Below, piece after piece: positions 13,677 to 60,480 of a stretch of 64,000 bases of DNA. A program made the position numbers and the translations under genes. The stretch lies in the IMG/VR virus record IMGVR_UViG_3300035698_034402, positions 20,989 to 84,988 of that record; one strand, 5' to 3'. The notes under the pieces are model-generated. The model saw only the letters and a program-made list of their open reading frames with translations. It did not search any database and had not been told where the DNA came from. The DNA is from a virus. Every line of letters starts with the position of its first letter. Within the stretch, counting starts at the first letter, position 1.

Positions 13677-14186
13677 ATGGCTTCCTATGCGGGGTGCGCA
13701 GACACCGTAATTGAAAATGTTAGCGGCGGCACGATCTCCCGTTTGTCGCTTTTTAGCCAGAGTAATCTTGTTGACGGCGCAAGATTTACGATACCGGGCA
13801 ATGTGTGGTCCTGGTTAGTTGGTAAATTTCCAGGCATCAAAGGACGCCGAGTAATACAGATATTCAGAGATCTTCTGGATCAGCAGGTTCTGTCGCTCGT
13901 ATCGTGTCCGGAATGCCCTTGTGGCCATCAGCAGTCTTCGTCGTCTTCGTCGAATGCTGGTACTGCGGCAGCGGAGCAGTCTTCGTCTTCGTTGGATGCT
14001 GGTACTGCGGCAGTGGAGCAGTCTTCGTCGTCTTCGTCGGATGCTGGTACTGCGGCAGTGGAGCAGTCTTCGTCGTCTTCGTCGAATGTTGGTACTGCGG
14101 CAGCGGAGCAGTCTTCGTCGTCTTCGTCGAATGTTGGTACTGCGGCAGCGGAGCAGTCTTCGTCGTCTTCGTCGAATGCTGGTTAA
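13677..14186 (+). CDS. Poly-serine repeat protein, copy 1 of a duplicated small virion family
   Basis: The first 85 residues form an ordered domain (GCADTVIENVSGG, VDGARFTIPGNVW) ending in a Cys cluster, CPECPCGHQQ. The remainder is five and a half repeats of the type SSSSSSNAGTAAAEQ. The 14226 gene is a near copy of it, and the 14683 gene is a diverged relative. The Cys cluster (CxxCxCxH) could bind metal or form disulfides. The repeat tail looks like a flexible, possibly glycosylated, surface extension. ATG follows AGGAGTAGCAAGTC. Function unknown; a virion surface protein is likely. Confidence 0.65.
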   Translation: MASYAGCADTVIENVSGGTISRLSLFSQSNLVDGARFTIPGNVWSWLVGKFPGIKGRRVIQIFRDLLDQQVLSLVSCPECPCGHQQSSSSSSNAGTAAAEQSSSSLDAGTAAVEQSSSSSSDAGTAAVEQSSSSSSNVGTAAAEQSSSSSSNVGTAAAEQSSSSSSNAG

Positions 14187-42206: not shown

Positions 42207-43142
42207 ATGGTTGCTGGAGCCATCACGCATACCGAATGGCTGAACGAGAACCGCAACCGGAGGTACCCCTTCTGGGATTATTGCTCGTTGAGGGATTCCT
42301 CCAGCTCGATGCAGCTGCCTAACGAGCTAATCGTGGATTTGGTCTTCCCGGTTCACGCTCTGGATCAGGACGTTTCTCAGTTCCATCTCAAAGAGCTGGT
42401 TGTCTTTGGGGGCGGAGTAACCATCACCCTGGGGTATGGCGGGGTAGCCATCGCTACTCGGACCATCACCGAGGCCGAGCACACCGAGAACAGGACCTAT
42501 TGCATCGAGGGCCTCGGAGATTTCGCCGATAGCGTGGGCCGAATCATCATCGGGCGCTTGGAGGACGTTAAAGATTACGGGGGAAGTTACGCGTTCAACA
42601 TTGCCGATGCCCGGCTCTTGCCAACGGTACTCCGCCCCAGTCTCAAAGGAGTCAGCAGTCTGCGGGTGGTTAGCGCAGATAATGACATCAGCGACCTGCT
42701 CCAGGGGGATATTGAACTGGTAGCGGGCGACAATATCCAGATGACTATTACCGACGCAGGCGGCGGAGTTAAACGTCTGAAGATATCCGCGGTGACCAAT
42801 TCCGACTTCCAAGAGAGCTGCGACTGCCCGGACGAGGCCCAGGGCGAGCCGATCAAAACTATCAATGGCGTGAGCCCCAACTCCAACGGGGAGTTTTTTA
42901 TCACAGGACTCGATTGCGTGACTATTGACAACGGTGCGGTAGCTAACGGTATTCGGATCGAGGATGACTGCGCGGAGCCATGCTGCGGCTGCAAGGAGCT
43001 GGATGTTCTACGGGACGAGATAGCCCGGCTGGGCGCTCAGCTCGCTACACAGCGAAATTTTGCTCAGCGAGCCACAGGCTCTATCGAGCAAATGCGGGAT
43101 GTAATTTTAGCTTCTAAGCTCGGGGCAGTAGTGCCGTGTTAG
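42207..43142 (+). CDS. YPF-family virion protein 1 (311 aa)
   Basis: This is the first of five neighbouring relatives. Shared parts: an N-terminal WLNENRNRRYPFWD motif (residues 11-24); a central GDIELVAGDNIQMTI segment near residue 170; and TINGVSPNSNGEFFI near 215, followed by a Cys cluster (CAEPCCGC, about 258). A helical tail ends the protein, with a heptad-like region (LDVLRDEIARLGAQLATQ) that could trimerise. One poly-Ser block (SSSSM) lies near the start. The pattern implies a modular fibre or whisker subunit. Function inferred from order only. Confidence 0.6.
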   Translation: MVAGAITHTEWLNENRNRRYPFWDYCSLRDSSSSMQLPNELIVDLVFPVHALDQDVSQFHLKELVVFGGGVTITLGYGGVAIATRTITEAEHTENRTYCIEGLGDFADSVGRIIIGRLEDVKDYGGSYAFNIADARLLPTVLRPSLKGVSSLRVVSADNDISDLLQGDIELVAGDNIQMTITDAGGGVKRLKISAVTNSDFQESCDCPDEAQGEPIKTINGVSPNSNGEFFITGLDCVTIDNGAVANGIRIEDDCAEPCCGCKELDVLRDEIARLGAQLATQRNFAQRATGSIEQMRDVILASKLGAVVPC

Positions 43143-43152
43143 GAGGCTAACT

Positions 43153-44529
43153 ATGCCGAGCGTGGAAGGCGAGTGGTTAGAACGCAACAGGTATCGCAGC
43201 CATCCGTTCATCGTTACGCCCCAAGCAGTAGCATATCAGACCTTGATTGACGGGCTGTTCGTTGACGCCTATTTGGTTCACGAAGAGAGTCTGGGCGATG
43301 CGCCGCTGACGATCCAATTCGTCGATTTTACTGGCGACATATTAAAATTAGCCGAAGCGGACACTTCGGTGACTCTGCTCCAGCTAACCGCTCCCGACAA
43401 GACTAATTCCGATGACGGCCGCTACCGCACTTACTTATGGTCCGATGATGCGCTACGCGTCGCCGTAACGCTGATCGTTTCGTTGGATAGCCCCTTTTGG
43501 GATGAAGTGGTCAAGGAGACTGAGTTCACTGCAGATAATGCCCTAGTATCGAAGTGCGTGGAACAGCAAGCCCAACGTGTTGATCAACTTGGGGTACGTG
43601 CCGGGGCTATTGTCGTCGATATCGGCGAAGTTGGACATTACGTCGAGGGCTCCAATATTCGATTAGAGCTTGACCCGAACACTGCGCGTATGCAGGCTTT
43701 AGAATTGAGGGAGTCTGGGCTGCGGCCGAATCCATATCGCATTGTTATCGGCGCGGTAGCTGGGGCGGGGGAGGGTCGAACAGAGGTGGGCTGCGCAGCG
43801 ACGGCCGATGCGGTCTATAGCATCAACGGACAACGTCCTACAAACGGAGGGCTACAGCTGGAAGGCGACACGTGCTATAGGATTACACGTCCGACTGGGG
43901 CGCTGGTCATGGACGAATTCAAAAGTACCCGGCACACCTTACAGCTCGCTAACGATTGCCAAGCCTGCTGCGATTGCGCGGATTTTATTGAGGTGCTGGA
44001 ACAGATCCGCGACTTGAAGGACGAGGGCTTGCGCGTCCGCCGCGAATGGGAAGACGCCCGGGAAGCCTTCGAGCAGGTTTTGTCCGACTGGCAAGCGACG
44101 TTGACCTGCGTGGGCACCAGCTGTATTTCCCGGCTGTTCGGCTATTCGTTTACCGGCTGGCTGGTCACCGTGCAGATCTGGATCGGCAACCCCCAGGCTT
44201 GTCTGCGGCCGGGTGCCAGCATCGAAGTGCGTTTCAGCAACGGGGACTTCGACCCGGTTTACGTCGAAGGCACCGGTATGGCGTACAACGACCAAGACAT
44301 GTATGCCCAGGCGGAGGTTACCGAGGCTGCCGGGGTATTTACCATGGAAGACAACAATGCGATCAAGGGAGGGGGCTACAAGATCTTCGTGTTCTCGGTG
44401 CGAATGCAGCCGTCCGTTGACCGGGTGGATGGAAATACGGTGCAGATTGACGCTTCGGTCGCCGCTTGCGAGCAAGCTCCCGAGTTGTTGACGACCCTGG
44501 TAGAGCTGCGCGGCAATGCGAGTAAGTAA
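43153..44529 (+). CDS. YPF-family virion protein 2 (458 aa)
   Basis: The N-terminus WLERNRYRSHPFIV matches the YPF motif of its neighbours. It shares QRVDQLGVRAGAIV (residues about 140-153) with the 48368 product, SINGQRPTNGGLQLE near 220, and a CQACCDC cluster near 275 followed by a charged helix (FIEVLEQIRDLKDEGLRV). A C-terminal beta domain of about 135 residues (GWLVTVQIWIGNPQACLRPG) is unique to this copy. It looks like a neck-helix fibre with a distal beta head; the head may contact a host or a neighbour. Confidence 0.6.
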   Translation: MPSVEGEWLERNRYRSHPFIVTPQAVAYQTLIDGLFVDAYLVHEESLGDAPLTIQFVDFTGDILKLAEADTSVTLLQLTAPDKTNSDDGRYRTYLWSDDALRVAVTLIVSLDSPFWDEVVKETEFTADNALVSKCVEQQAQRVDQLGVRAGAIVVDIGEVGHYVEGSNIRLELDPNTARMQALELRESGLRPNPYRIVIGAVAGAGEGRTEVGCAATADAVYSINGQRPTNGGLQLEGDTCYRITRPTGALVMDEFKSTRHTLQLANDCQACCDCADFIEVLEQIRDLKDEGLRVRREWEDAREAFEQVLSDWQATLTCVGTSCISRLFGYSFTGWLVTVQIWIGNPQACLRPGASIEVRFSNGDFDPVYVEGTGMAYNDQDMYAQAEVTEAAGVFTMEDNNAIKGGGYKIFVFSVRMQPSVDRVDGNTVQIDASVAACEQAPELLTTLVELRGNASK

Positions 44530-47229
44530 ATGGTAGTTAGCCAGCATACCGTGGGGAGTCTAAACGATGTCCGAGCGTATCCCTTTGCGGACAACGCTAG
44601 CTGTTGCGCTGATGACGGCAGCGCTTTGCCTGAGAGCATTTTGAACGATTGCCACGTTTGGTGGCCGGATCTTTATGGTTCGACAGGTTTTATTGCCTCT
44701 ATCACAGTGAGCCCCAATCTTATGACTTTGACCATCGCAGCAAAGCACCTCGTGACCGGCGCGATTACAGTATTAGCGGCTGTTCAGATCGCCCGCTCGG
44801 CCACACCGTATCGCAGTTATCCGGTTGAAGCTCTACAGGCCGGAGTGGGCGGTTGGGTAGCGCCTGGAAAGATTCCCGAAGAAATGACAGGAGTGCGTAC
44901 CTGGTTGTTCAGCGACCCGGACCAGGCTGCTTTGCTACCCAGACTTGCCCACGCTTACCCCGTCGGCGGGGTGCTCTCTCTGGGCAAGGAAGACAGCGCC
45001 GAAGCGCTGGACGGAAGAGTGCGTTTTATCGCAGGCACCAATATGACCGTAGAGGAGGGCTACCGCTACATCGACGGAGCGCTGACTCGTTGTATTGTCT
45101 TCGGCTTGAACTCCGAGCAGTTGCCCGAGATGTACAAGCTTTTTGCTGGGCCGTGCGGCAAGCGCCCGGAAAGCGGCACCTGTGATCGTGAGCCTTTGCG
45201 GACTATCAACCAGGTAGAGCCGGATTGCGCAGGGCTCATTTATCTGGAGATCGACGACACCAACGGAGTTCTTGCCGGGTATCCTGATATTACCGACGAC
45301 GCAGGCGGCACCGGGATCGTGTTGACTACGCCGGTGGCCTATGGTGACGTGTGCGAAACAGTCGTGCGTTTTGATCCGCTGGCGGAGGACCAGTGCGCTT
45401 CTTCGTTAAGCGAGTACGTTCCGGAGGAACCGGAGGCAGAATCATCTGCTGCATTAGTACCACAATCCTCTTCTTCCTGGGTTGCTGCCCGGAGGATCGA
45501 ATATAGCTTTTCCGATTTAGAAGCTCTTCGCGACTGGTCGCCGTTCGAGGGACTCGGCAAGGTCTCGGGGTTTCATTGGGCCATGGATCATTTGGGCAGT
45601 GATTGGAGATTTGATCGAATACCCGGAACGGTTACTGATACGGCTTTACGAGTTGAAACCGGCGCCCTGGTAATTCCGTCTTATGAGGGACCTACTAACG
45701 TAATTCAAAGGGTATTGCGAAATAACAACTGGCGAATGGGACTCGATCGACACGGCGACTTTGTCGACGTAGAACTGGACTGGGAGATTTCCGCCCTTTT
45801 GCTTTCGGAGTTAGTTGAAGACGGGTACGGACATACGCGGTCGTTACAGTTTTACATCTCGTGCGGCCTAATGACCCGCGCGTATCCGTGGCTTGGGCGG
45901 GTGCTCCGAATGAACGTCGAGTACAGCCGGGTGAGCCAGCCCGGAGAACCGGCCTGTCCTTGGAAGCACGGGATCAAGGTGGAGGTCTCCTTACAAGCGA
46001 CCTATGTTCAAATTAACTGGTTGAAGTTAACCGACAGCCAAGTTAAGTATTTTTACCGGCTGCCTAGTGAAGGAGGATTGCTTTCGTCTTCGTCGTTCGA
46101 TGCCGACGAGCTATTGCGCGAGCGCGTTCATTTCCGTTTAACTCGTCGCAATCTTCCGGACTACGCCCTCCTTCGGGGCGAGCGTTCGTCTTCGTCTTCT
46201 ATAATAGGAAGGAGCCCGTACTTAGACTGGGAATACACTTACAACGACGAGACTACTGTCGACGGCCGTTTTGATCTTAGCTACCTGGCTGGAGACGGCA
46301 CCGAAAATTGGGAGTACATGAAATTTTTTGGCGTGCGTTACGCGACTGGCTCCCAGGATGCCCCGTTCATTCAGGTCCCGCTGCGTTTGCGGAACTTGGC
46401 ACTAACAGCCACTCGCCTGGCTCGCCAGGATTGCGACGACGAGGACTACCGCGGCGATGCAGACGCGGAAACAGTGGATTATGCAGTACGTTATGACCCG
46501 ACGAACCACTGGTCCAACGACTTTGGTACCACGCGGGCTCTACGGATGTTTCAACGTCTGCCGAGTTCAACGTACCTTTTGCCGCAACAGTTCTATCTTG
46601 ATGGCGCTTATCTGGTCTACCCCCGGCAGTATCTGGACGCGGGCTTTGGTACCAATCACAAGTACGGGGTGTTGCACTGCTCAGACAGCTCCGTAGATAC
46701 CTACGTTTATTCTGCGGCCTTCAAAGGCATCAGCGCGAACCCGAAAGTAGGCGTCTTGCTGGGCTACCAGAACGACGACGCCGACACTTTCTGGGCGGTG
46801 GTTGTCGATCTTAACCGCCGGAAGATCTCCTACGGCGTGCAAGCCTATGGAATCTTTACCCCGGTGAGTTGGGAGAACTTAGTTGGTCTAGGGGACCCGA
46901 CCGACTGGCATCGTCTAGTAGTGCATATTGCCCCCGGATACCCCGGATATGTCGTACGGGCTTGGGTGAACCCTTGGTCTCCGGGATCGTCATCTGGCGG
47001 CGGGCCAAATCTGACAAAGACGATACCGATAGATTACGCTAGTCCTACGTACGCGTTGACGTCAATCTCGGCCTGGGCGCCCGGTTCGCTGACGCCGCAG
47101 GACGAGTTCGCCGACGGAGCGCCTGGGTTTTATGTCTACGGGGGTACGGCGCGGATCGCCGAGTTTACTGCTTCCCCGGTTAATGAAGACATTGTGGTGC
47201 CTAACAAGGTGCCCTGGTTACCTCGGTAA
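44530..47229 (+). CDS. YPF-family large appendage protein with C-terminal lectin-like region (899 aa)
   Basis: The N-terminus has the family motif in degraded form (SLNDVRAYPFAD), then a GRVRFIAGTNMTV segment near 170 and TINQVEPDCAGLIYLE near 225. Poly-Ser blocks follow (PQSSSSWV, LSSSSFDA, RSSSSSIIG). The second half is beta rich; residues about 740-870 (GVLLGYQNDDADTFWAVVVD and WHRLVVHIAPG) look like a concanavalin/LamG-type fold. This suggests a tail fibre or spike that binds a glycan. The start ATG is adjacent to the previous stop. Confidence 0.55.
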   Translation: MVVSQHTVGSLNDVRAYPFADNASCCADDGSALPESILNDCHVWWPDLYGSTGFIASITVSPNLMTLTIAAKHLVTGAITVLAAVQIARSATPYRSYPVEALQAGVGGWVAPGKIPEEMTGVRTWLFSDPDQAALLPRLAHAYPVGGVLSLGKEDSAEALDGRVRFIAGTNMTVEEGYRYIDGALTRCIVFGLNSEQLPEMYKLFAGPCGKRPESGTCDREPLRTINQVEPDCAGLIYLEIDDTNGVLAGYPDITDDAGGTGIVLTTPVAYGDVCETVVRFDPLAEDQCASSLSEYVPEEPEAESSAALVPQSSSSWVAARRIEYSFSDLEALRDWSPFEGLGKVSGFHWAMDHLGSDWRFDRIPGTVTDTALRVETGALVIPSYEGPTNVIQRVLRNNNWRMGLDRHGDFVDVELDWEISALLLSELVEDGYGHTRSLQFYISCGLMTRAYPWLGRVLRMNVEYSRVSQPGEPACPWKHGIKVEVSLQATYVQINWLKLTDSQVKYFYRLPSEGGLLSSSSFDADELLRERVHFRLTRRNLPDYALLRGERSSSSSIIGRSPYLDWEYTYNDETTVDGRFDLSYLAGDGTENWEYMKFFGVRYATGSQDAPFIQVPLRLRNLALTATRLARQDCDDEDYRGDADAETVDYAVRYDPTNHWSNDFGTTRALRMFQRLPSSTYLLPQQFYLDGAYLVYPRQYLDAGFGTNHKYGVLHCSDSSVDTYVYSAAFKGISANPKVGVLLGYQNDDADTFWAVVVDLNRRKISYGVQAYGIFTPVSWENLVGLGDPTDWHRLVVHIAPGYPGYVVRAWVNPWSPGSSSGGGPNLTKTIPIDYASPTYALTSISAWAPGSLTPQDEFADGAPGFYVYGGTARIAEFTASPVNEDIVVPNKVPWLPR

Positions 47230-47243
47230 TAGGAGAAAAGATT

Positions 47244-47507
47244 ATGGACATCAAGACCCGCGGATACGCTACAACGGAGTTTTTACTGCAGATCGTCGCC
47301 GTCGTTTGTATCGTCGGAGCGACGGTAGCTAAAAACGCCTGGGGTTGGGAGATTCCGGAGGACTTGCTGAAGCTGCTTTGGGGGCTGGTCGGCGGTGCCT
47401 CGGTCTACACTGTCGGGCGATCGTATTATAAGGGCCAGAGAGTCAAAGCGATGCTGACGAACGGCGGAGCGCCGATAGCGCCGATAGCGCCGTCCAAGAA
47501 GAAGTGA
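47244..47507 (+). CDS. Holin-like small membrane protein (87 aa)
   Basis: This protein has two hydrophobic segments, about residues 13-31 (FLLQIVAVVCIVGATVA) and 43-60 (LLKLLWGLVGGASVYTV), and a positively charged C-terminus ending in KKK. Size, two transmembrane helices and Lys-rich tail fit a class II-like phage holin. No endolysin gene lies next to it in this window, so the call is tentative. It is flanked by appendage genes; GCGCCGATA repeats (47471 region) encode the APIAPIAP linker. Confidence 0.5.
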   Translation: MDIKTRGYATTEFLLQIVAVVCIVGATVAKNAWGWEIPEDLLKLLWGLVGGASVYTVGRSYYKGQRVKAMLTNGGAPIAPIAPSKKK

Positions 47508-47510
47508 TCT

Positions 47511-47522
47511 GTAACGCGTTAC
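47511..47522. repeat. Palindrome copy 5, GTAACGCGTTAC
   Basis: An exact copy in the short gap between the holin-like gene and the next ATG, so it is not forced by coding. T and A flanks extend it to 14 bp. Confidence 0.8.
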
Positions 47523-47526
47523 ACCA

Positions 47527-48366
47527 ATGAGAATTACCTACCCGTCTTACTACGAGGAGTCTGTTGATGCAGACTACCCCTTTGAATCCGGAGCCAGCCG
47601 GAACAACGGGGACGTTGTCATCGAGAACGACGTCTTTGTCGACGGACGCCTGTTCCCTCCGGACGGGCGGTACGATTTGTTCATCTCGGCAATCGAGGTC
47701 GGCGATGAAGTAAATATTACTTTGTCTGACGGGACCGGCGAAGTCGGGAGAGGATCTTTCGACCGTAATGCCCCGCCGTCGTTTCTTACTTTTTACACCG
47801 CAGATTTCGCAGTATATCTGGGCCTGCTGCAGTGTCTTTATCCGGAGACGTACGGGGGAGCGTCGCATGCCGGATTGAACAAGTTGGCTGGATGGCCGAA
47901 CGGAGTGTATCGCTTCGATCAAGAGCAGACGCGCTTTGCGGCCACTGTAGTAGTCCCCCAGCCGCAAGGCGTGGTCCGGTCCATCGTGCTGGACTCGGGA
48001 GCCGTATTTCGCGGGGATGTCGTGCTGTATGGCGAGCAGGGGGTGCAGTTAACCATCCCGAAGGAAACCGGATCTTCGTCTTCCAGCCGGGGTCCGTACT
48101 GCGGATTCGACGGGTACTTGGACAACCGTATCCGCGTGGACGTGGTTGGCGACCCATTGTTCGTCCGCCGGGGTTGCGAAGACCGCGGTGTGCAGACACG
48201 ACAGAATGTGCTGGTCAAAGGAATCGTTTTTGACAGTTCGGCTATCGAGCCGGACGCAACCGGGGCGTTTCATCTAACCCTGGCGACACTGGCTGCGGAC
48301 GAACGCCCGGGGTTGCGACTCACTACAGAGCGCCACGGGCTGCGGGTCGGCTTTCTAGGCGGCTGA
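47527..48366 (+). CDS. YPF-family virion protein 4 (279 aa)
   Basis: ATG 47527 follows the GTAACGCGTTAC palindrome by 4 bp. The N-terminus YYEESVDADYPFES is a variant of the family motif; the rest is beta rich with a GSSSSSRG block near residue 182. The TINGxxP motif is reduced to a DATGAFHLTL segment. It is a diverged family member without the Cys cluster. Function unknown, presumably part of the appendages. Confidence 0.55.
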   Translation: MRITYPSYYEESVDADYPFESGASRNNGDVVIENDVFVDGRLFPPDGRYDLFISAIEVGDEVNITLSDGTGEVGRGSFDRNAPPSFLTFYTADFAVYLGLLQCLYPETYGGASHAGLNKLAGWPNGVYRFDQEQTRFAATVVVPQPQGVVRSIVLDSGAVFRGDVVLYGEQGVQLTIPKETGSSSSSRGPYCGFDGYLDNRIRVDVVGDPLFVRRGCEDRGVQTRQNVLVKGIVFDSSAIEPDATGAFHLTLATLAADERPGLRLTTERHGLRVGFLGG

Positions 48367-48367
48367 T

Positions 48368-49270
48368 GTGGCAGACACTGACTTCTACAACCGGAATCTT
48401 TATCGGTCGTACCCCCTCGTGGGATCGCCGTATACGCTGACTGACGAGGATAGGTTCAGCCGATTTGGTTTAGTAGACTTTGGCATCGTTTTCAACGAAG
48501 CTGCCGGTTTCGACCCAGACGAGGACGAGCATCGGGTGTGGCCGGTGTCGACGAACTGGAGCGCTCCGAATGTAACCGTTACGCTAAAGATCAACGCCCC
48601 GGGTACTTTGGTACACGACGAAACGATCACGCTCCACGGGGCCTACTCCGCTTTCGAGGTAGTTCCTTTTTCTCATTCAGCGGGGGGACGATTACTTTTC
48701 TACGGCTTTGCGGTAATTGGAAGACCCGAGCTGATAGCCGCCGGGATGCTTGTACAAGTTTACGACGTTGCGCTTGAATTTATCGAACGTCGCTGCATCC
48801 AGGTTCAACAGGGACATCGGGTTGATCAACTGGCGGTAGCCAATGAAGCACGCACTGTCGCTTTACCGATGTGCCCATCGGAAAGCAGCTCCTCGCTTGC
48901 TGTTGCAGCTACTGCTTACGCGCCTGGCGGCGAAGCCCTGGAGGGGCATCTTCGCTTTCGCGCGGGGTACAACTGCAATCTCGCTGTATTGCCAACTGCT
49001 AACGCTGTCCGCTTCGGGGCTAAGGTGGGCGCAGGGGCTGGAGAAGCCTGCACAGAAATCGCTCGTACCCTCGAAGAGCAGGAGCGGTTGGATGCTGGGA
49101 TCACTTTGGACCGCGCGACGTGTTGCAATGAAGTGTTCAACAGTATCAACGGGATCCCGCCGAACGCTTCCGGAGATTTCGTTTTGCAGCCCGGCCGCGG
49201 GGTAGAAATCACTAACCCCAGCGCCCATACGATTCGGATTGCTGGACGGACGTCAATGGAGGAGTGTTGA
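48368..49270 (+). CDS. YPF-family virion protein 5 (300 aa)
   Basis: GTG 48368 lies 1 base after the previous stop. The family features are DFYNRNLYRSYPLVGS near the start, HRVDQLAVANEA (residues about 155-166), SESSSSLA, then GHLRFRAGYNCNLAV near 198, and SINGIPPNASGDFVL near 262. The C-terminus carries single Cys residues (TCCNEV) but no CCxC cluster. It sits directly before the C-x11-C protein and its stop overlaps that gene's ATG. Confidence 0.6.
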   Translation: MADTDFYNRNLYRSYPLVGSPYTLTDEDRFSRFGLVDFGIVFNEAAGFDPDEDEHRVWPVSTNWSAPNVTVTLKINAPGTLVHDETITLHGAYSAFEVVPFSHSAGGRLLFYGFAVIGRPELIAAGMLVQVYDVALEFIERRCIQVQQGHRVDQLAVANEARTVALPMCPSESSSSLAVAATAYAPGGEALEGHLRFRAGYNCNLAVLPTANAVRFGAKVGAGAGEACTEIARTLEEQERLDAGITLDRATCCNEVFNSINGIPPNASGDFVLQPGRGVEITNPSAHTIRIAGRTSMEEC

Positions 49271-51306
49271 TGAATTCCAGCTCTTCCTCCTTGCTTCCTG
49301 AATTGCTGTCGTCTTCTTCGGTTATCCCGCCCCCTCCGCCGCGGGCTTTTGACAAGGAATGCGTTCCTTCAGCAACGCCTATCGGGGACTACGATCTTAT
49401 CGACGACTGCAATTTCCCGCAGCCGCCGGACATGATTTTGACCCCGGTTGACCCGCCGATTCCCATCCCGCCGGTGGATCAAGGCTGCTTCTCCTTAAAC
49501 ATCGACGGTGAGTTGTATGTGCCGGGCGAGAGCAGCGCTATCGAGGGCGGGTTGGAGATCACTACGACTTACCCAACCGGCGACGTCTGCGAACCGGAAA
49601 TCGATATTCGCCTGAATGTCCCTTGCTTCGTAGGTTTTTCCGCGGGCGAGGGCAATGTAAGCTGGGATCCGGCAGCCGATTCTGCCTCTTTGGACTTCAG
49701 TGTTATCGAGGGAGAGGAATGTGACTTCACTCTCGACATAGATCTAACGTTGCCCTGTCCTACAGATCTGACCGGCGGCGGAGGCAGCGTGGATTACGTG
49801 CCCGGCGCCGCAGGGTCCGCGGTAGTCCGGGCTTCTGCATTGCCGGATAGCTGCGACTTTGAATTGGCCGTGGATGTGGTACTGCCCTGCCCGGGAGTAA
49901 TTACTGCCAGCGTGCGATCGGTCGGCGAGGAATGCGTGCCCCACCCGCCGACTCTGACTGTCCAAGTTACCAATCCTCCAGAGATTGTCTCTTCGTCCAG
50001 CGCACGCGAAACTTGTAATTATCATCTGGATTTCCAGCTGAATGTGCCGTGCCCAATTGATTGGCAAGGCGGTACGGTAGTTCCTGCTCTGGTCAACGCC
50101 GTAGGGTTACCTACCGGCAGTTTGATCGTTAATCTGGCCGGGATCTCTTCTTCCGTGCCTTGCGATAATGCCGCCTGTGAGCCTTATTTTACGCTGAGGC
50201 TAAACATGCCCTGCCCGGCGGACTTTTCCGGGATGGGCGGGCCGCTCAGTATTTACGCATACGATTCGGCGTCTGGTATCCCGGCGCCGTGGGCCACAGA
50301 GCCGGATGGCCGTCTCGCAGTAGACTATCAAGACGGCAGCGTATGCGCCCCGACTCTGGAGATTAGCCTGAATCTGCCTTGCCCGGTGGAGTTCGACGTC
50401 GGAGACGAGCCCTCGATCAACGTGTTGGACTCGGCTTTTTACGAGGGAGTCGATCCCCCGAAAGAACCGCCGGTGCGTAAATGGGCCTTTGGCCAGCCGA
50501 CTGGGCTATTAACTATCGATTTCGGCTCGGTAGGTGATGATTCAACGCAGTGTCTGCCTTCGTTGGATTTCTCTTTGAATCTACCTTGTCCAGCTGGCGG
50601 TTGTCATCATAGCCCGGTTACCGATGATGAGTTGAGTCTGCTTTCCTGGCGGCAAGAGCAGCCGCCGTATGACACCGATCATGAGCATCCGTACTACAGC
50701 GTTATCCCGAACGGCACGATTATGTGTGGGCAGCAGGATCCCAAGGAATACGGAGATCTGCTATATGAAGAGCCGTCCGGGCTGCTTGCGCGGATGGAGT
50801 TTGATGAGAGCTGCAATCTGGACTTCGACCTCAGTTTGTACATGCCCTGTTCGCATCGGGATCTGGGCGTCCAGCTCCGCAATTACGAAACCGGCAGTCT
50901 GCTAGGCTCGTTGGAGGGGTATTCGGTAGACGTCTCCCAGGACTACGCTGCGGCTGGAGACAATCCTTGCGCGTTCACCGACGACGTGGATATCTACCTT
51001 CCACCGAGCGGAAGCGGGGGTGGAGGGCGTTTCGCTGAAATTCTATCGGCTACGGGGCTGCGCGCGCCTTGGAACTACGTAGCTCAAGAAGTGACTTTCG
51101 AGGATTACGAGGATCCGGATTCAGTGGTCGTCGTAGAGGGGTCCTCTTACACCGGCGACAACTTTTTCAACATGGCCGAGTTCCTGCAGGACTGTCCGAC
51201 CGAGTTGTCCCCCGGCGAAATCGTGGTATTCTGGGTGACTACGGACGAGAATCAGGTGCAGATGAAAATGTTCTACAATCTCGGGCAGAAAGCGGTGTAT
51301 CTCTGA
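49270..51306 (+). CDS. Appendage protein with nine C-x11-C beta repeats (678 aa)
   Basis: ATG 49270 fits the GGAGGAGTGTTG ribosome site better than the upstream GTG. After a Ser/Pro-rich N-terminus (NSSSSSLLPELLSSSS, then a run of Pro) come nine repeats with the core C-x11-C, for example CDFTLDIDLTLPC, CNYHLDFQLNVPC and CAPTLEISLNLPC. The spacing is exactly 11 in eight; the ninth (CAFTDDVDIYLPP) lost the second Cys. Each repeat is a two-strand unit of 60-90 residues that would be held by a disulfide or metal. The last 100 residues form a different domain (DNFFNMAEFLQDC). The repeats look like a shaft in a fibre. I know no named family with this core. Confidence 0.62.
   Translation: MNSSSSSLLPELLSSSSVIPPPPPRAFDKECVPSATPIGDYDLIDDCNFPQPPDMILTPVDPPIPIPPVDQGCFSLNIDGELYVPGESSAIEGGLEITTTYPTGDVCEPEIDIRLNVPCFVGFSAGEGNVSWDPAADSASLDFSVIEGEECDFTLDIDLTLPCPTDLTGGGGSVDYVPGAAGSAVVRASALPDSCDFELAVDVVLPCPGVITASVRSVGEECVPHPPTLTVQVTNPPEIVSSSSARETCNYHLDFQLNVPCPIDWQGGTVVPALVNAVGLPTGSLIVNLAGISSSVPCDNAACEPYFTLRLNMPCPADFSGMGGPLSIYAYDSASGIPAPWATEPDGRLAVDYQDGSVCAPTLEISLNLPCPVEFDVGDEPSINVLDSAFYEGVDPPKEPPVRKWAFGQPTGLLTIDFGSVGDDSTQCLPSLDFSLNLPCPAGGCHHSPVTDDELSLLSWRQEQPPYDTDHEHPYYSVIPNGTIMCGQQDPKEYGDLLYEEPSGLLARMEFDESCNLDFDLSLYMPCSHRDLGVQLRNYETGSLLGSLEGYSVDVSQDYAAAGDNPCAFTDDVDIYLPPSGSGGGGRFAEILSATGLRAPWNYVAQEVTFEDYEDPDSVVVVEGSSYTGDNFFNMAEFLQDCPTELSPGEIVVFWVTTDENQVQMKMFYNLGQKAVYL
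49588..51005 (+). repeat. C-x11-C protein repeats (nine units)
   Basis: The conserved unit has alternating hydrophobic residues between two Cys, ending L-[NVT]-[LVM]-P-C. The DNA identity between units is low, so the repeats are old and kept by protein selection. Linkers vary in length. Confidence 0.75.
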
Positions 51307-52214: not shown

Positions 52215-52657
52215 TGATCACCGTCGATTTCGCAGAATTGCTCGCCAAGGCCGTGTTTTCCGGCGCCTCCGCCACGTATCCCAGCGCAATTCATTTCGGG
52301 CTGGCCTGGATCGCGCTTGATAACGAAATCCTGGCGGATCCGCTGATCGACATGTCCATGGTGGCGCCTTACGAGATCACCGGCGTGGGGTATGCGCGGG
52401 ACGAGATACTCCGGGGAGGATGGGCGGTCACCCCGGGAGTACATCCCGTGAGCCCGTACGCCGCGTGCACTTTGCAATGGAACAACACGTCCCCGGAGTA
52501 CGCGTGGCCGGTCTGCAATCACACTTTTTTATCCACCGCGGCCAGCGGGGGGACGCTGCTTGCGTTACAATACCTGGGGCAAGATGTGGTGGTGCCCTTC
52601 GACGACTTCTTCCGTATTGAAAGTTTTCGTTTCTGGTTCCGTGACTACGACGAGTGA
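52214..52657 (+). CDS. Small appendage-module protein (147 aa)
   Basis: This is a beta-rich protein (MITVDFAELLAKAVFSGASA; GTLLALQYLGQDVVVPFDDF) starting at the last base of the previous gene and overlapping the next by 4 bp. The texture is similar to small fibre-associated proteins. No specific function can be assigned. Confidence 0.45.
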   Translation: MITVDFAELLAKAVFSGASATYPSAIHFGLAWIALDNEILADPLIDMSMVAPYEITGVGYARDEILRGGWAVTPGVHPVSPYAACTLQWNNTSPEYAWPVCNHTFLSTAASGGTLLALQYLGQDVVVPFDDFFRIESFRFWFRDYDE

Positions 52658-55275
52658 CCCCGATGCCCAAGACTATCAGCACCCTGTATCTGCAGGCCAA
52701 TTGGAAGGAGTCGAGGGCGGCGGAGCGCTCCGATCCGGCGTATAGCCCGGACCCCTGCGCCTACCCCACCAATGCTGCGGTCAAGTCCGCGTTCCAGCGC
52801 CTGGAGCAGATGATCTACGCTCTATGCGGGGCGATCCCGACTCCCGACGGGGGGACCACTTGGATGACGCCGCATGACAAAGCTCATCCACGGGCAATGT
52901 GGCCCAAGCTGTACCGGTTCCACGGCCTGGAGATACTCGAAGACGAGTACTATAATCGGAACGAATACTTGTCTCGCGGCGAAACGGATTCCCCGACTTT
53001 TTTCCCCACGTTGCCCTCTTCGAGGCCGACCTACGCCAATCACGTCCCGGTACGGCCGCGCAGCGTGCAACATGCCCGGCAATTCATGACATACTCACAT
53101 CACGAGCGGGTAGTTTTAGTCTCTCGGAATCAGGACGTGTTTCCTTACGATGTAAAAGATGACCAGGATGTAGTTTTCCTTGTTGTTGTGCAGCAAGCTA
53201 ATTTGACTGGCGCAGAAATGATCTGGCGAAAGAAGCCGGATGGCGGCTCGTGGAGCGGACTGACCCATGTCAACCTCACGCCCCCGGACTTTCCAGAGGC
53301 GACCCTTCCATCCGCTGATTTCACGCGGCTGGATGAATATGAGCTTCATTTCGAGTTTAGCTACACGGATATCCATTCCATGTGGGATCCGGATCCGCCA
53401 GCCCAGGACAGGTATAGTTTCGTGGTACTGAACCACGAAAATCCCTACGCGTACGGTTTGCCGGAGTTCGTTACTTCTGAGAACGACGATAGCTGGTTCC
53501 CGGAGGCGCCTTTCGAGGGCTGCCTGTACCAGCCGCAGGCTCACCATATCAACATGGTGCGCTGGGCGCTGAACTATTTCGGGCAGCAAGGCATACAGTT
53601 CGACCCGCGGGATCGCGACAGTCCGGAGAGTTGTTGTTACGAACAGGAGATAAAATTCCGTTGGATGGGGTCCAATGTGCCGGGGCACTATGTCTACGGG
53701 GGCAAAGGGACGACCGATTCGATCGCCTATCCCTATGCCTCGACAACTGCCGCACGACATGGCCTAAGTTCTGGCAGTCGGGGATCGCGGATGTGGTGGA
53801 GGGGGCACCCCCGCAACGTGTACAGCGATAGCTACGGGGTCAACTCTGAACCTCCGGTAACTCTGTTGGCGGAGAAGACGACGGGGGACGACGGATTCCC
53901 GTGCCACCCGTATCGTTATCAACAGGATTATCTGGGCGGGGATGAAAGTTGGATGTCCTTGCCCAATCAGTTCCCCAAGTCCGACCAGATGACTTGCGAC
54001 GACTTGCCGGAAGCAGACATGGTTGACTACATTGCGCGTCGGGGCCTGTTGGAATGCGACGAAGTGACCCCGGAACATGTTCATGAGATGGTAGATTCGA
54101 TCAACTGGTTGTGGAACAATGGACTGTGGTTCGGGGACCCGAACCTGGTAAGAGTGCGCATGGCCACGCCGTCGGCGGTGTTTGGTTCGTACTGCGGCCA
54201 CGTGATTCACCCGTTTTTTGGAGACTACGCGGAATGCGACCAGTACCATAACGAGTGCTTCATGTGTCATGTTGACGATCCGGATATCGAGCCGGGGGTA
54301 GGCGAAGTTATCGAAGGCCCGAGCAGCGCAGAATGCGACTCCCCTACCTGGGATACGGACCACCTGCTAAACAACAAAATATGCAAGTATACACTTAGTT
54401 GGAGCTTTGGGGTGCCCGATCCGGAGGACGCTACCGAAGCGGCGGTCTGCATCCGGGGAGGTCCAGGCGGCGCGCCGGAACATGGCATGAACGGAGGATA
54501 CAACCAGTGTTGCTACGGCGGAGAGAGCGCGACTAAAGCGCTTGAGGGCCAGTTTCTTGCCGAGGATTGCGGCCAGTGCACTAATTGGGATTATTCCGGC
54601 GTCCGGGGATACGAATACTGGGCTTGCGGCCCTGTAGAATGCCGGGCCAATGGGGTGGACGACTATCTCGCCACGCTTAACCCTACGAATCACGGGAACT
54701 ACTGGGACGACGGCCCCGATAGAATACAGCCCGGAGAATTCCCTTGTTGGGCGCAGTCCACCCGCGGCGGCGGCACCGATCACCGGGCTACTTCGCTGGG
54801 CAATTGTTTCGACAAGGTCTATTACTGCAACGACACGATGTACAATCTTGCGGGAGCCCCAATCGGAGAGCCTGGTTTCGGGGAGACCGTGCGCGTCAAG
54901 TGGAACGGCGTAGTGCCCGGCTGGGCGAGGGCAAGCGGCGGTTGCGGGCCGTCTCTCCCGGGAAACCCTCGGGGGCTGCATAATCTGCAAGCTGCAGAGG
55001 GCTCCTTTTACTACGGGAACCCTGATTATCCCGGGCATGAGCTTTGTGGCAGCTGTAGCGGCGATCCTCCTAATGAAGACGATACCGAACTCTGGTGTAT
55101 GGTCCGCGCCGAGCATTACCCTTCGGCGGAGATGTGCTCGCCCACGGCGGGATATTTGCGTGTCAGGGTGCCGGATGTCGGGACTAACCCGTTGACTTCG
55201 TATCCGTCCGAGGCTTCCTGGGACAGAGAATACCCGGACCACTATTGCTCCGTGTTTCAGGTGTTGACCTACTAG
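52654..55275 (+). CDS. Large Cys-rich appendage protein (873 aa)
   Basis: GTG 52654 overlaps the previous stop (GTGA); ATG 52663 is an alternative. The protein has ordinary composition at first (TISTLYLQANWKES) and becomes Cys rich after about residue 500, with CFMCHVDD, YNQCCYGGES, DCGQCTNWDYSG and CGSCSGDPPN. Some 30 Cys residues may form disulfides or bind metal. Aromatic residues are also common. It may be the distal part of an appendage, exposed to the medium. No family recognised. Confidence 0.45.
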   Translation: MTPMPKTISTLYLQANWKESRAAERSDPAYSPDPCAYPTNAAVKSAFQRLEQMIYALCGAIPTPDGGTTWMTPHDKAHPRAMWPKLYRFHGLEILEDEYYNRNEYLSRGETDSPTFFPTLPSSRPTYANHVPVRPRSVQHARQFMTYSHHERVVLVSRNQDVFPYDVKDDQDVVFLVVVQQANLTGAEMIWRKKPDGGSWSGLTHVNLTPPDFPEATLPSADFTRLDEYELHFEFSYTDIHSMWDPDPPAQDRYSFVVLNHENPYAYGLPEFVTSENDDSWFPEAPFEGCLYQPQAHHINMVRWALNYFGQQGIQFDPRDRDSPESCCYEQEIKFRWMGSNVPGHYVYGGKGTTDSIAYPYASTTAARHGLSSGSRGSRMWWRGHPRNVYSDSYGVNSEPPVTLLAEKTTGDDGFPCHPYRYQQDYLGGDESWMSLPNQFPKSDQMTCDDLPEADMVDYIARRGLLECDEVTPEHVHEMVDSINWLWNNGLWFGDPNLVRVRMATPSAVFGSYCGHVIHPFFGDYAECDQYHNECFMCHVDDPDIEPGVGEVIEGPSSAECDSPTWDTDHLLNNKICKYTLSWSFGVPDPEDATEAAVCIRGGPGGAPEHGMNGGYNQCCYGGESATKALEGQFLAEDCGQCTNWDYSGVRGYEYWACGPVECRANGVDDYLATLNPTNHGNYWDDGPDRIQPGEFPCWAQSTRGGGTDHRATSLGNCFDKVYYCNDTMYNLAGAPIGEPGFGETVRVKWNGVVPGWARASGGCGPSLPGNPRGLHNLQAAEGSFYYGNPDYPGHELCGSCSGDPPNEDDTELWCMVRAEHYPSAEMCSPTAGYLRVRVPDVGTNPLTSYPSEASWDREYPDHYCSVFQVLTY

Positions 55276-55665: not shown

Positions 55666-56122
55666 ACTGCTCCACATGTTAACGGTCTGCGTTTTCGTGA
55701 TCGGAGTTCACTACGTTCTGTTCAGTTCCTTGCTGACCAAGGAAATAGGGAGATGGTGGTATCGGCGCCATCACGAGTACTACGAAGAGACGCGACGGCT
55801 GCAATACGAACTTAGACGCGGCCAGGAATATCGCGAGAACGCTACTCATCCCGCGCTGGAAGCTGCAAAGCGGCTAGAAGATACCGAACTGGAAGAGCGC
55901 AAAAAACGTCTGATTGCGCTACAGACCCGGCGCCCGGGTAACCGGTGGCTGAGTTACTTTCTGGGTTGCTTCTTTTGCCAGACCTCGTGGATGGTGCTAG
56001 CGGTTAGCTTACTAGCAGGTTGTGGCTGGCACAGTCTGGCAAACATGCCGGGGTATGCCATGGTTATCGTGTGGATGAATTCTCTGATCTACCGGAGCAC
56101 TCCTCACGAGCGGACCCGATGA
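55616..56122 (+). CDS. Membrane protein with cytoplasmic helical hairpin (168 aa)
   Basis: GTG 55616 is chosen because it has GAGGAGG nine bases upstream; a TTG 51 bases earlier is also in frame but lacks a site. Hydrophobic segments lie at about residues 22-43 (LTVCVFVIGVHYVLFSSL), 115-138 (YFLGCFFCQTSWMVLAVS) and 143-158. Between the first two is a charged coiled-coil-like segment (HHEYYEETRRLQYELRRG). The CFFCQTSW core recalls DUF1360-type small phage membrane proteins, but I am unsure. It ends overlapping the glycosyltransferase ATG, so both may act at the envelope. Confidence 0.5.
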   Translation: MTSPAVPNFLQITSLSELLHMLTVCVFVIGVHYVLFSSLLTKEIGRWWYRRHHEYYEETRRLQYELRRGQEYRENATHPALEAAKRLEDTELEERKKRLIALQTRRPGNRWLSYFLGCFFCQTSWMVLAVSLLAGCGWHSLANMPGYAMVIVWMNSLIYRSTPHERTR

Positions 56123-58107
56123 AGACCCCTCAGCAGTATCTCTTCCGGAATATGCAAGCGCCGGGTGACGTGCTAATGATGACCGCGGCGATCCGGGATT
56201 TACACCGGTGTTACCCTGGGCGGTTTATTACAAATGTGGAAACCACCGCGAGCGAACTATGGCAGCATAATCCTTACTTGCAGAAGGTGAACAAGAGACA
56301 CGCCGCTAAAATTACTCTGGGGTATCCGCTGATTCAGCAATCTAACCAGTGCGGGTTGCATTTTATTCAGGGGTTTATTGACGATCTTAACCGGAAGCTC
56401 AAGCTTAAGATCCGGTTGACCGAGTTCCGTCCGGACTTGCATTTTTCCAAAGAGGAGATGGAGAAGCCGCTTGTTGAGGGGCAGTACTGGGTACTGCTCT
56501 CGGGAGGGAAAGCTGATTTTACCACCAAGTGGTGGGATCCGGGGCGCTGGCAACAAGTCGTAGATGACTTAGAGGGGCAAGTCGCCTTCGTCCAGATCGG
56601 CAATAAGCCGAGCGGTGGAGGCGCTCGACACTACCATCCGCCGCTCACTAAGGTAGTTAATCTGGTGGGCAAGACCAATCTGCGGCAGGCTATCCGGGTC
56701 CTGCTGCATTCGTGCGGAGTGGTAACCCCTGTAACCTTCGCGATGCATGCAGCGGCTGCAATGGCCAAACCCACTATAGTTATCGCCGGGGGGCGCGAGC
56801 ACTGGACCTGGGAGGCGTATACCGAAGAGACTTTGCGACGCAATTTGGCCTACGCAGCGGGGTTGCTGTCCAAACCGCCGGGTAAACCCAAGGAATGGAA
56901 GCGTTGGTCTCCGCACACTGACGGGCGGTTCGTAGATCACGCGTTTGTGCCGCACCAGTTTCTTCACACTGTCGGCCAGCTAAGCTGTTGCAAGAACCAG
57001 GGATGCTGGAAGACCAAAGTTACCGAAGGGAGGCCGGAGCAGAACTGTAAAGACGTCGTACGCAGGCCGGGTCGTACGCCGCTGCCGCGTTGTCTGGACA
57101 TGATCACTTCTGCTATGGTAGTGAAAGAAATCTTGGAGCATGAAAAGCGAGTTAACCAAGGGGGACTTATGCCCACTGTCAAGGATCTGATTGTCGCTAT
57201 TCCCGGGGCCGACGCGCCGCCGCCTCCTCAAGATCCGTCTCCGGTGACTGATAAGCCTTCTAAGAGCGAGAAAAAGAAGAAGAAGGCAAAGCAAGCTGTG
57301 GCCGGGCGGCCATTAGCTCCGGCTCAGCTGCAGTTCAAACATCTTACCTTTCCAATTACAGTTTGCGGTATTGCCTACGGAGATCATGAGAAGCTGATCA
57401 TGCGTTGTCTGGAGAGCATTTACCGCTGCCTGGATATCAACCTGTTTCGGCTGCGCTACGGGATGAACGCGGTGCCGCTGAAAATCGAGAAACGCATCAT
57501 CGCTTTTTTGGAGGACAAGCCCAATCTCGAACGGATTTACCGGGCTAATCCGCAGGTCTATAAATATCCCCTGATGCGTCGGATGTTTCGTGATCCGGAA
57601 TTGCCGCTGGAGACCGACTGGGTCATGTGGTTAGACGACGACAGCCATATTGTCGATCCAGAATTTATCCGGCGCTTGGGGGAGGTAGTCGATATAAAGT
57701 TCTTGGAGCAGAACGAACGTACGCCAAAGGGGCATCACTGTTTTGGAAAGGTGTACTATTTCCATCTTCGCGGAGAGCAGATCGCGGCTACAAGCAAGAA
57801 CGGTAACCTGGGTTGGGTGGAACAGGCTTCCTGGTATTCCGGACGTCCGTACAATTTGGACCGTACTAAGCATCCTCCTATGCCCAAAAGCGATTTCTGC
57901 ACCGGGGGCTTCTGGTTGGTAAGCCGACAAGCGCTCCAAGATTGCGATGGGCCGGACCCGCGGCTGCGACATCGCGGCGGAGATATCATGTTCGGAGCTG
58001 CGCTGCAGCAGCAGGGCTTCGGCGTAGCGCAATGTTACGAGGGGGTGAGGATCAGCGATGCTGGAAAACGAGGTTTCGACGAGCCCATTGCGGGTATCCA
58101 AAAATGA
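56119..58107 (+). CDS. Two-domain glycosyltransferase (GT9 heptosyltransferase-like + GT-A)
   Basis: ATG 56119 overlaps the previous stop. Residues about 1-270 resemble GT9 ADP-heptose transferases: APGDVLMMTAAIRDLHRCYP near the start and VVTPVTFAMHAAAAMAKPT near 210 (usual D-GxxH region changed). A Pro/Lys/Ser linker (residues about 370-400) leads to a GT-A domain with WVMWLDDDSHI (DDD at about 506-508), an acidic cluster that fits a metal-binding DxD. It would transfer a sugar to an acceptor that may be a virion Ser tract or the host envelope. The two-domain arrangement is unusual, and activity is not proven. Confidence 0.62.
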   Translation: MKTPQQYLFRNMQAPGDVLMMTAAIRDLHRCYPGRFITNVETTASELWQHNPYLQKVNKRHAAKITLGYPLIQQSNQCGLHFIQGFIDDLNRKLKLKIRLTEFRPDLHFSKEEMEKPLVEGQYWVLLSGGKADFTTKWWDPGRWQQVVDDLEGQVAFVQIGNKPSGGGARHYHPPLTKVVNLVGKTNLRQAIRVLLHSCGVVTPVTFAMHAAAAMAKPTIVIAGGREHWTWEAYTEETLRRNLAYAAGLLSKPPGKPKEWKRWSPHTDGRFVDHAFVPHQFLHTVGQLSCCKNQGCWKTKVTEGRPEQNCKDVVRRPGRTPLPRCLDMITSAMVVKEILEHEKRVNQGGLMPTVKDLIVAIPGADAPPPPQDPSPVTDKPSKSEKKKKKAKQAVAGRPLAPAQLQFKHLTFPITVCGIAYGDHEKLIMRCLESIYRCLDINLFRLRYGMNAVPLKIEKRIIAFLEDKPNLERIYRANPQVYKYPLMRRMFRDPELPLETDWVMWLDDDSHIVDPEFIRRLGEVVDIKFLEQNERTPKGHHCFGKVYYFHLRGEQIAATSKNGNLGWVEQASWYSGRPYNLDRTKHPPMPKSDFCTGGFWLVSRQALQDCDGPDPRLRHRGGDIMFGAALQQQGFGVAQCYEGVRISDAGKRGFDEPIAGIQK

Positions 58108-58485: not shown

Positions 58486-60480
58486 ATGAGCAAGCTCGTC
58501 AATTGCTGGGCAGGCAACTTCGTTTCAGTCAATAACGAATATGTGAAAGTTGGCTCCTACTCCACGTTCAATTTCATTCCCACGCTAAATGCTTTCACTA
58601 TTCAGGCCTGGGTCCGCACCACCACGGGCAACGGCGAGCAGTACATTATCGGCAAAGGCGACGCGGTTGGTTTGCAGTATGCTATTTCCTTCGCGGACCC
58701 TGATCTTAATATCACCATCGGCGACGACGCATTCTCTTTCGATATCAACGCTCTTTTGGGATATGGCTTGAATAATGACGGCTGGCACCACATTGTCGTC
58801 GTGGTGAGCACGACTACTGCTACGCTCTACATCGCTGGAGCGCAAGTGGGAGCGGCGCAGGCTCTTTCTGGCGTAGTCACCCGGCCCCGGGATCTTCTGA
58901 TCGGCGGCATCCGGAACGTTGATAATACGGATGTCAAGGGCTCCTGGGACGAGTACATAGACGAGATCGGAATTTGGGACGAGGCTCTCGGGGCGGCGGA
59001 GATTACCGCGCTTTACAACGCCGGAGTGGGTATCGCGCTGGACGACGATTCGGGCAATTACACTAGTTCAGATCATCTGATCGGCTGGTGGCGTATGGGT
59101 GACGGCGCCACCGAAAACGCCGGAGGCGTGCCGACGGCTAATATCGCCGACGAGTCGGGTAACGAACACAGTGCTACAGTTGAGAGCGACGCTTTGGATC
59201 TGGAGGTCTTCTACGCCGCGACGGCCAGCGCAGGCGGGCCGGGCGAGTGCCCGGTATTCGATTCTTCCTCCTCGCTTTACCCGGCGATTCCCCCGCGTTT
59301 GACTATCACTCGTGCTGACCAGGGCAATTTGGAGAAACGCGTTGGATTTGAAGGGGATTTGCATCGTCTGGTAGTCACCGCTACTGGCAACCAGGACAGC
59401 GTGCCCACCAAGCTTTTTGTTTACGAACGCGCCCGGGTAACTATCGGGCTGCCGTTGCAACGCCCGACTTTCCGACGGGTAGCGACGCTTCGTGACTTAC
59501 AAACTATTCCGGAGGATGCCCCCGGCACCACGATTCCCTTTGCGTATCGACGTGAACAGGCTGAGATCCTGTGCGAGACTGCGGCTAAATTAGACGAAGC
59601 TTGGATAGAGATTCAACGCCAGACGGCCACTTTGGCTCTCGACCTGAATGACTTCGGGATACCTGATGCGGACGGTGTGCTGCGCGGCGGCAGAGACGAA
59701 GCTGCGACTACAGATACCGAGACTTTCGATTTGGTAACGCCTTCTCCAACGCCTCCAACGCCGAGCCCGTCGTCATCTTCGTCGTCTCCGGTGCCTATTC
59801 AGGCGCCGCTGCGGCTGTCCTCTTCGTCATCGTTGTTTGTCTCTCCGCCGCAGCTATCTTCCTCGTCCCTGTGGGTCGATCCGCACGCGCTTGGTACAAG
59901 ACTTTATCCAGCTGTTGCTACCGATGTCGTGGCCCGGTTGACCGATGCAGCTACCGGCGTCAAGACCCTCTTCACCGATCTGGGCTTTGTCCGCTTTGGA
60001 AGAGACAGCGATCCATTGCGCACTTGGGATACATTCTTCCGGGTCCAGTTAGATATCCCCAAGTGTTCTTTGATCCAGACAGCGTATCTCATTTTGGGGG
60101 CACATACTTCGGAGACCGGGGAAGACGTCGTAGTCCGACTGTCCGATATTTACGCTGACGCTGCCTTTGCTGCCGTCGGGGCTTTCTCCGGGACTGACGA
60201 TCCGGCTAAGACAAACCAAACTCTGGTCTGGTCTCGGATCGCTGCGACAGGGGCGGGAAGCGGCTTGATAACTCCGAGTTTGGCGGACATGTTACAATTC
60301 TTCGTGGATCGCGGGAATTACACACCGGGCAGCGATTATTTCGGTCTCTGGATCAAGGAAGAAGCTTCGGACGACGGTGCTCGGCGGGACGCAACCGTGA
60401 CCGTGTCCTCTACACCGTATCTCAGAGTAGAGTACCGAGATGACCGGGAATGCCGTTCGTCCTCGTACTTGGGAGCTTGA
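58486..60480 (+). CDS. LamG-like fibre protein with poly-Ser hinge (664 aa)
   Basis: Residues about 15-185 form a concanavalin/LamG-type domain: FTIQAWVRTTTGNGEQYIIG, WHHIVVVVSTTTATLYI, and DEYIDEIGIWDEALG. A segment near 285-390 has a motif repeated in the next gene (FAYRREQAEILCETAAKLDE-type). Then come Ser/Pro stretches (PSPSSSSSSPVP, SSSSSLFVSPP, LSSSSLW) and a C-terminal beta domain. The layout suggests a fibre with a sugar-binding tip at the N-end and a flexible hinge. Confidence 0.55.
   Translation: MSKLVNCWAGNFVSVNNEYVKVGSYSTFNFIPTLNAFTIQAWVRTTTGNGEQYIIGKGDAVGLQYAISFADPDLNITIGDDAFSFDINALLGYGLNNDGWHHIVVVVSTTTATLYIAGAQVGAAQALSGVVTRPRDLLIGGIRNVDNTDVKGSWDEYIDEIGIWDEALGAAEITALYNAGVGIALDDDSGNYTSSDHLIGWWRMGDGATENAGGVPTANIADESGNEHSATVESDALDLEVFYAATASAGGPGECPVFDSSSSLYPAIPPRLTITRADQGNLEKRVGFEGDLHRLVVTATGNQDSVPTKLFVYERARVTIGLPLQRPTFRRVATLRDLQTIPEDAPGTTIPFAYRREQAEILCETAAKLDEAWIEIQRQTATLALDLNDFGIPDADGVLRGGRDEAATTDTETFDLVTPSPTPPTPSPSSSSSSPVPIQAPLRLSSSSSLFVSPPQLSSSSLWVDPHALGTRLYPAVATDVVARLTDAATGVKTLFTDLGFVRFGRDSDPLRTWDTFFRVQLDIPKCSLIQTAYLILGAHTSETGEDVVVRLSDIYADAAFAAVGAFSGTDDPAKTNQTLVWSRIAATGAGSGLITPSLADMLQFFVDRGNYTPGSDYFGLWIKEEASDDGARRDATVTVSSTPYLRVEYRDDRECRSSSYLGA

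Follow-up and report, generated by a model that had tools for sequence, protein, structure and literature searches.

A Cysteine-Bracketed Hairpin Repeat, Candidate Shaft Module of Virion Fibres in Uncultured Jumbo-Type Phages

The window, i.e., the complete stretch of 64,000 nucleotides analysed here, belongs to a virus record of 84,988 bp (IMGVR_UViG_3300035698_034402, positions 20,989 to 84,988). Downstream of its tail genes lies a gene for a repeat protein (Table 1). The stop codon of this gene ends at 51306; residue numbers are counted from the codon at 49264, not from the ATG at 49270. With 25 Cys the protein has a cysteine content of 3.7% vs. about 1.3% across the proteins of the window. 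Eight C-x10-P-C motifs start at residues 109, 153, 197, 251, 305, 361, 430, and 517. A ninth motif, CAFTDDVDIYLPP, at residue 569 keeps the first Cys and lacks the second. In the following C1 and C2 denote the first and the second Cys of a C-x11-C motif. The initial annotation had described exactly this, eight Cys-x11-Cys repeats ending in Pro-Cys and a ninth without the second Cys, and the motif scan and shuffling agree. Shuffled proteins of the same composition contained a mean of 0.1 C-x10-P-C motifs, with a maximum of 2 in 2000 shuffles, compared to the 8 observed. That the repeats are a chance product or a compositional artefact of a Cys/Pro-rich protein is already refuted by these shuffles, by conservation in orthologs and by the presence of the repeat in dozens of phages; this possibility can practically be dismissed.

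Table 1. Features of the repeat-protein locus and of the tail and head genes in the window.
Feature	Position	Strand	Basis or remark
MCP-like protein gene	11739-12677		
Tail sheath gene	18552-21446		
Baseplate_J gene	36348-38006		11 kb upstream of repeat gene
Conserved upstream cassette, ORFs 42207, 43153, 44530, 47527, 48368	42207..49270	+	synteny in relatives
Shine-Dalgarno GGAGGAG	49258..49264	+	read in sequence, just 5' of ATG 49270
Repeat-protein CDS, 678 aa	49270..51306	+	ATG overlaps stop codon of upstream gene; orthologs G002, G001
N-terminal module: Ser/Pro-rich start, C33/C49 pair, PPP segment, lone Cys 75	49270..49488	+	conserved in G001/G002
Hairpin unit 1, C75...C109	49486..49590	+	alignment of unit triplets, AF2
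Strand-C core 1, CEPEIDIRLNVPC	49588..49626	+	motif scan
Hairpin unit 2, C121...C153	49624..49722	+	profile positions; best-modelled unit, pLDDT ~75-82
Strand-C core 2, CDFTLDIDLTLPC	49720..49758	+	motif scan, AF2
Hairpin unit 3, C165...C197	49756..49854	+	profile positions
Strand-C core 3, CDFELAVDVVLPC	49852..49890	+	motif scan
Hairpin unit 4, C209...C251	49888..50016	+	profile positions
Strand-C core 4, CNYHLDFQLNVPC	50014..50052	+	motif scan
Hairpin unit 5, C263...C305	50050..50178	+	motif scan
Strand-C core 5, CEPYFTLRLNMPC	50176..50214	+	motif scan
Hairpin unit 6, C317...C361	50212..50346	+	profile positions
Strand-C core 6, CAPTLEISLNLPC	50344..50382	+	motif scan
Hairpin unit 7 with insertion, C373...C430	50380..50553	+	motif scan
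Strand-C core 7, CLPSLDFSLNLPC	50551..50589	+	motif scan
Hairpin unit 8, large insertion with extra C447 and C488; C442...C517	50587..50814	+	motif scan
Strand-C core 8, CNLDFDLSLYMPC	50812..50850	+	motif scan
Hairpin unit 9, C529...C569	50848..50970	+	motif scan
Terminal strand-C core 9, CAFTDDVDIYLPP, C1 present, C2 absent	50968..51006	+	motif scan
C-terminal region	51007..51303	+	partly common to G002 ortholog (GGRFA..., VVFW)

The spacing is constant only within the motif, where always 11 residues lie between the two Cys. Successive motifs are 44, 44, 54, 54, 56, 69, 87, and 52 aa apart. The exact spacing initially claimed therefore holds inside the motif and fails between motifs (44-87 aa). 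The DNA of the gene contains no direct repeat of at least 18 bases and no tandem repeat, in keeping with the low DNA identity among repeats noted earlier. This suggests that the array is old and is maintained by selection on the protein. In the N-terminal module the Cys, the Pro, and GC[FY] are retained in the alignment with the two orthologs; Cys 75 is the lone Cys which opens the repeat array.

In nearly all loci with enough flank the repeat gene is positioned directly 3' of homologs of the upstream cassette, which have the same order; L140 and L141 are the exceptions. The five cassette ORFs have some mutual similarity and their order is kept across the clade. They share similar N-terminal motifs, RRYPF, YRSHPF, VRAYPF, DADYPF, and YRSYPL (YRxYPF kind). 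Pfam returned no match for them and PHROG only insignificant ones. Downstream of the repeat gene, 52654-55275 (+) codes for a further protein rich in Cys (30 of its 873 residues), which may be one more fibre or a tip protein. It is fast-evolving, with only 21% identity to its syntenic counterpart in L013 (6694-9858, -). The downstream structural module further comprises a GT9-family glycosyltransferase (56020-58107, +) and a protein with a LamG-like lectin domain (58486-60480, +). Homologs of both are located downstream in several relatives, a glycosyltransferase in most. Runs of four or more Ser form linkers in many structural ORFs, e.g., 13677-14186, 44530-47229, and 58486-60480.

Three other ORFs of the window deserve mention. 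Among the tail genes, 34682-35404 (+) has a Sigma-70 region 3-like match. The tail gene cluster also contains, preceded by a gap of about 250 bp, an ORF at 25240-26286 (+) with an RRXRR domain (PF14239, E 8e-34), an HNH endonuclease PHROG match, and an IscB-like N-terminus (PLMP); an Rfam search for a HEARO/omega RNA nearby gave no HEARO match. Lastly, an ORF at 275-1417 (+), just ahead of a 776-aa ORF, carries two LAGLIDADG_3 stretches and an N-terminus of Hint/intein-like appearance. It is a possible intein or homing endonuclease.

The repeat protein and its core have no match in Pfam, PHROGs, NCBIfam, or PDB sequences, nor did literature searches in open-access papers bring up a description of the repeat. 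The repeat thus appears to be undescribed in the searched libraries. The initial view that the core belongs to no named family is borne out by these searches together with Foldseek. Scans for relatives with single proteins of the window retrieved only its own record or nothing. A degenerate DNA pattern of the core identified two true relatives, contigs of 216,501 and 192,334 bp. Their repeat proteins are 40% (G002) and 30% (G001) identical to that of the window; the tail sheaths of the two contigs are 69% and 39-41% identical. Two other hits of the pattern, L002 and L003, were discarded as reverse-strand chance matches inside an unrelated ORF. With the sheath as query, 77 related contigs were then retrieved, the longest of 226 kb. 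A 57-column repeat profile detected the repeat in 38 of the 74 sheath-related contigs tested, all from uncultured phages (22/45 and 16/29); about half of the members tested in a large uncultured giant-phage group have this repeat, for which the searched family libraries contain no match. A second scan found it in 34 contigs. A tblastn search of the INPHARED isolates and pattern-based scans of the GTDB representative genomes produced no relative. The weak INPHARED match H1 is spurious and overlaps an AraC-like ORF on the other strand.

Two types of the repeat can be distinguished. The short type, present in the window, G001, G002, G009, and G042, has C-x11-C and a basic period of 43-44. The long type has approximately C-x16-C and a period of about 60; most of its hairpins contain two additional Cys, and a collagen tail is frequent. 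Its proteins are headed by an N-terminus similar to that of the window protein. Arrays of relatives reach about 18 units compared to nine in the window protein. L138 (2588-10147, -) and L134 (7143-15206, +) encode giant repeat proteins of 2,519 and 2,687 aa with about 100 Cys and added domains.

Structure prediction indicates that the repeats are β-structures, as had been supposed; both AlphaFold2 models of consecutive repeats have, at modest confidence, three strands per unit. The first model covered residues 73-212 of the window protein with a 67-row alignment of unit triplets (mean pLDDT 61.6, pTM 0.48). The middle unit is best defined (pLDDT about 75-82), with strands E58-62, E70-77, and E82-91 placed around fragment residues Cys 49, Cys 81, and Cys 93. 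The second model, of a long-type triplet (mean pLDDT 72.2, pTM 0.34), has a regular A/B/C order of strands that recurs in all three units, beginning with E5-17, E28-36, and E45-58. In the predicted topology C-x11-C, or C-x16-C, flanks one straight strand C, and consequently its two Cys are far apart. C2 of a repeat and C1 of the following one come where strands A and C begin and would be expected at the same end of a predicted three-stranded antiparallel sheet. A Foldseek comparison of these modest-confidence models with PDB and BFVD gave no match of the repeat unit at E <= 1e-3. Weak matches to POTRA and penicillin-binding-protein folds (TM 0.15-0.3) were rejected.

Which cysteines pair? The initial annotation assumed that C1 and C2 of each C-x11-C are bonded and clamp one β repeat. 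The spacing of exactly 11 in the short-type subfamily is striking and needs a reason. Yet both models place one continuous strand between the two Cys, in the first model E82-91 between fragment residues 81 and 93, so that they reside at its opposite ends; a Cys pair far apart in the prediction is what the initial annotation had named as refuting its view. Further, the spacing is about 16 in relatives while the family is retained, and the two Cys are not lost together: among 53 C1(n)-C2(n) pairs of the five short-type proteins 8 are discordant and none lacks both, and at the array end C2 is often gone while C1 is kept. We consider such a clamp very improbable.

A different picture emerges when C2 is paired with C1 of the following repeat. 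In the same five proteins a hand count at profile positions shows both Cys in 50 of 53 hairpins, neither in 2, and one discordant hairpin. The hypergeometric p for this co-loss is about 0.002, a post hoc value from few events in related sequences, with the array ends of the window protein and its orthologs included and the hypothesis formed on part of the same data. One discordant hairpin occurs in the relative L132/L199. The Cys that bracket the hairpin are invariant or almost invariant in alignments of 67 and 61 rows. In the window, G002, and G001 the array begins with a single conserved Cys (GC[FY]) and finishes with a C1-only strand. Pairing of C2(n) with C1(n+1) takes up every one of these Cys; pairing within the motif leaves two over. 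A terminal strand with C1 and without C2 recurs in other family members as well: C2 is missing in 16/35 terminal vs. 13/365 internal strands (35 family proteins; Fisher 1e-11, a test that ignores relatedness, on automatically parsed arrays of which some are incomplete and one, L017, is mis-parsed at one end). L137 and L150 (L189 is from the same record as the latter) have a short stretch of Gly-X-Y between the strand and the following 'CP', which indicates that C2 travels with the following hairpin. In the long type, the two extra Cys co-vary within the hairpin and, nearly as well, between neighbours.

Thus, C2 of a repeat is likely to have its partner in C1 of the repeat that follows, with a two-stranded hairpin enclosed between the two. 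Judged by where Cys are lost, where collagen-like stretches are inserted, and how the arrays end, the natural unit is C-P-hairpin-C-x-F-x-L-D-I-x-L-x-x-P, and the C-x11-C described initially is the junction between two units. On this pairing the ninth repeat would have no C2 because it belongs to the last unit; no hairpin follows and C2 is not needed. At the other end the first C1 (C109) would pair with the conserved Cys 75.

We propose, with somewhat more confidence than doubt, that the protein forms the trimeric shaft of a virion fibre, made of hairpins bracketed by disulfides, in a jumbo-type contractile-tailed phage. An N-terminal attachment module would be followed by nine units, each with a two-stranded hairpin usually opened by C-P and closed by C, and then a single strand, x-F-x-L-D-I-x-L-x-x-P, that connects to the following unit. 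At the hairpin base, C2(n) and C1(n+1) may bond with each other or, in a trimer, with a neighbouring chain. Chains would be formed in the reduced state inside the cell. Their oxidation would follow when the virion has left the reducing cytoplasm, and the bonded hairpins could result in a stiff, resistant shaft. Probably, the Cys pair locks each unit like a clip, and the fibre shaft so reinforced is widespread. The same repeat with the same partners might instead coordinate a metal (zinc or iron-sulfur) where units or chains meet; the shaft could then assemble in a reducing cytoplasm. The abundant Cys at near-invariant positions would fit, and metals are used by other phage spikes and fibres. 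However, each unit offers only two Cys, the alignments contain no conserved His partner, and a site with four ligands would require two units or several chains. Metal binding is, in our view, unlikely.

The trimeric state is suggested by the relatives. Collagen-like segments exist in the short-type L132 and the long-type L133, both of which pass the PF01391 threshold, and in the long-type L135 (below the curated cut-off). A collagen helix requires three parallel chains; hence the collagen-tailed relatives are likely trimers and, by extension, possibly also the window protein. As for its location, a fibre attached to the baseplate or the tail end is most likely. Genes downstream of those for the baseplate are the usual place of tail-end fibres, and the fibre or shaft role proposed at the outset gains support from this position and from the collagen-like tails of relatives. 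A head fibre or capsid decoration protein is a less probable assignment, if not quite as doubtful as the metal site. It could draw on L129, in syntenic position, which has four C-terminal copies of a domain matching PHROG families annotated as head decoration as well as tail fiber. Against this, the gene is located downstream of Baseplate_J and the tail genes, far from the MCP-like gene, and the collagen PHROG matches of relatives are mostly to tail fibre families.

Our broader proposal, a tentative one for which we would claim somewhat less than an even chance, is a new repeat-fold family: trimeric shafts of Cys-paired hairpins, with two pairs in the long form, which would be oxidised unit by unit after lysis and would serve an uncultured jumbo-phage clade as a standard block with interchangeable collagen-like or other tips. 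The reading clearly predicts the Cys partners and the time of their pairing, and the regular units might also find use as a rigid fibre scaffold.

Known systems share single traits with the repeat protein. The triple β-spiral of the adenovirus fibre shaft likewise has short repeated strands in a trimeric shaft, a state here presumed. Shaft repeats of the adenovirus type are shorter and without a conserved Cys pair, whereas those of the window are longer and bear a conserved Cys pair, with no Foldseek match at E <= 1e-3. Collagen-like phage tail fibres (PF01391; PHROGs 6320, 5073, and 819) resemble the relatives, which carry Gly-X-Y tails C-terminal to the repeats. The window protein, in contrast, has no Pfam match, hence no PF01391 collagen, and no Gly-X-Y tail; conversely, the Cys repeat is absent from these families.

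The closest parallel is the Agrobacterium phage Milano, in which tail components including a trimeric short tail fibre are disulfide-bonded (PMC10811340). Its gp31 has a slender segment of small bead-like domains made of β-hairpins from three subunits. Each bead contains two Cys at a distance of about 18 residues, and the disulfides listed are Cys84-Cys102 and Cys127-Cys144 (PMC10811340). A capsid disulfide network is reported for phage 7-7-1 (PMC12796354). Disulfide-supported phage fibres are known already; a Cys-bracketed hairpin repeat would be a new form. Two beads in gp31 compare with nine units here, and no common gene cassette is known to connect Milano with the repeat-protein locus. 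The Milano major capsid protein is Cys-rich, whereas the MCP-like protein of the window has 0 Cys, as has the 1231-aa putative tape measure; Baseplate_J has 1 and the sheath 10 in 964 residues. Cys-rich capsid and tail core proteins, as in a virion-wide network of the Milano kind, were not found in the window. Here it is the peripheral proteins in which Cys is concentrated, with 2-4% in several ORFs between 42207 and 55275. In hmmsearch the short and long repeat profiles gave no match to gp31 or a negative bit score. The likeness thus concerns the mode of working, not homology or membership: a contractile-tailed phage with Cys at both ends of a β-hairpin unit, here in modest-confidence models, and bonds, here presumed, in virions that are put together under reducing conditions; Milano is a precedent for oxidation after release (PMC10811340). 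If our reading is correct, the repeat protein would represent a second, sequence-unrelated case of disulfide-reinforced virions which assemble in a reducing cytoplasm.
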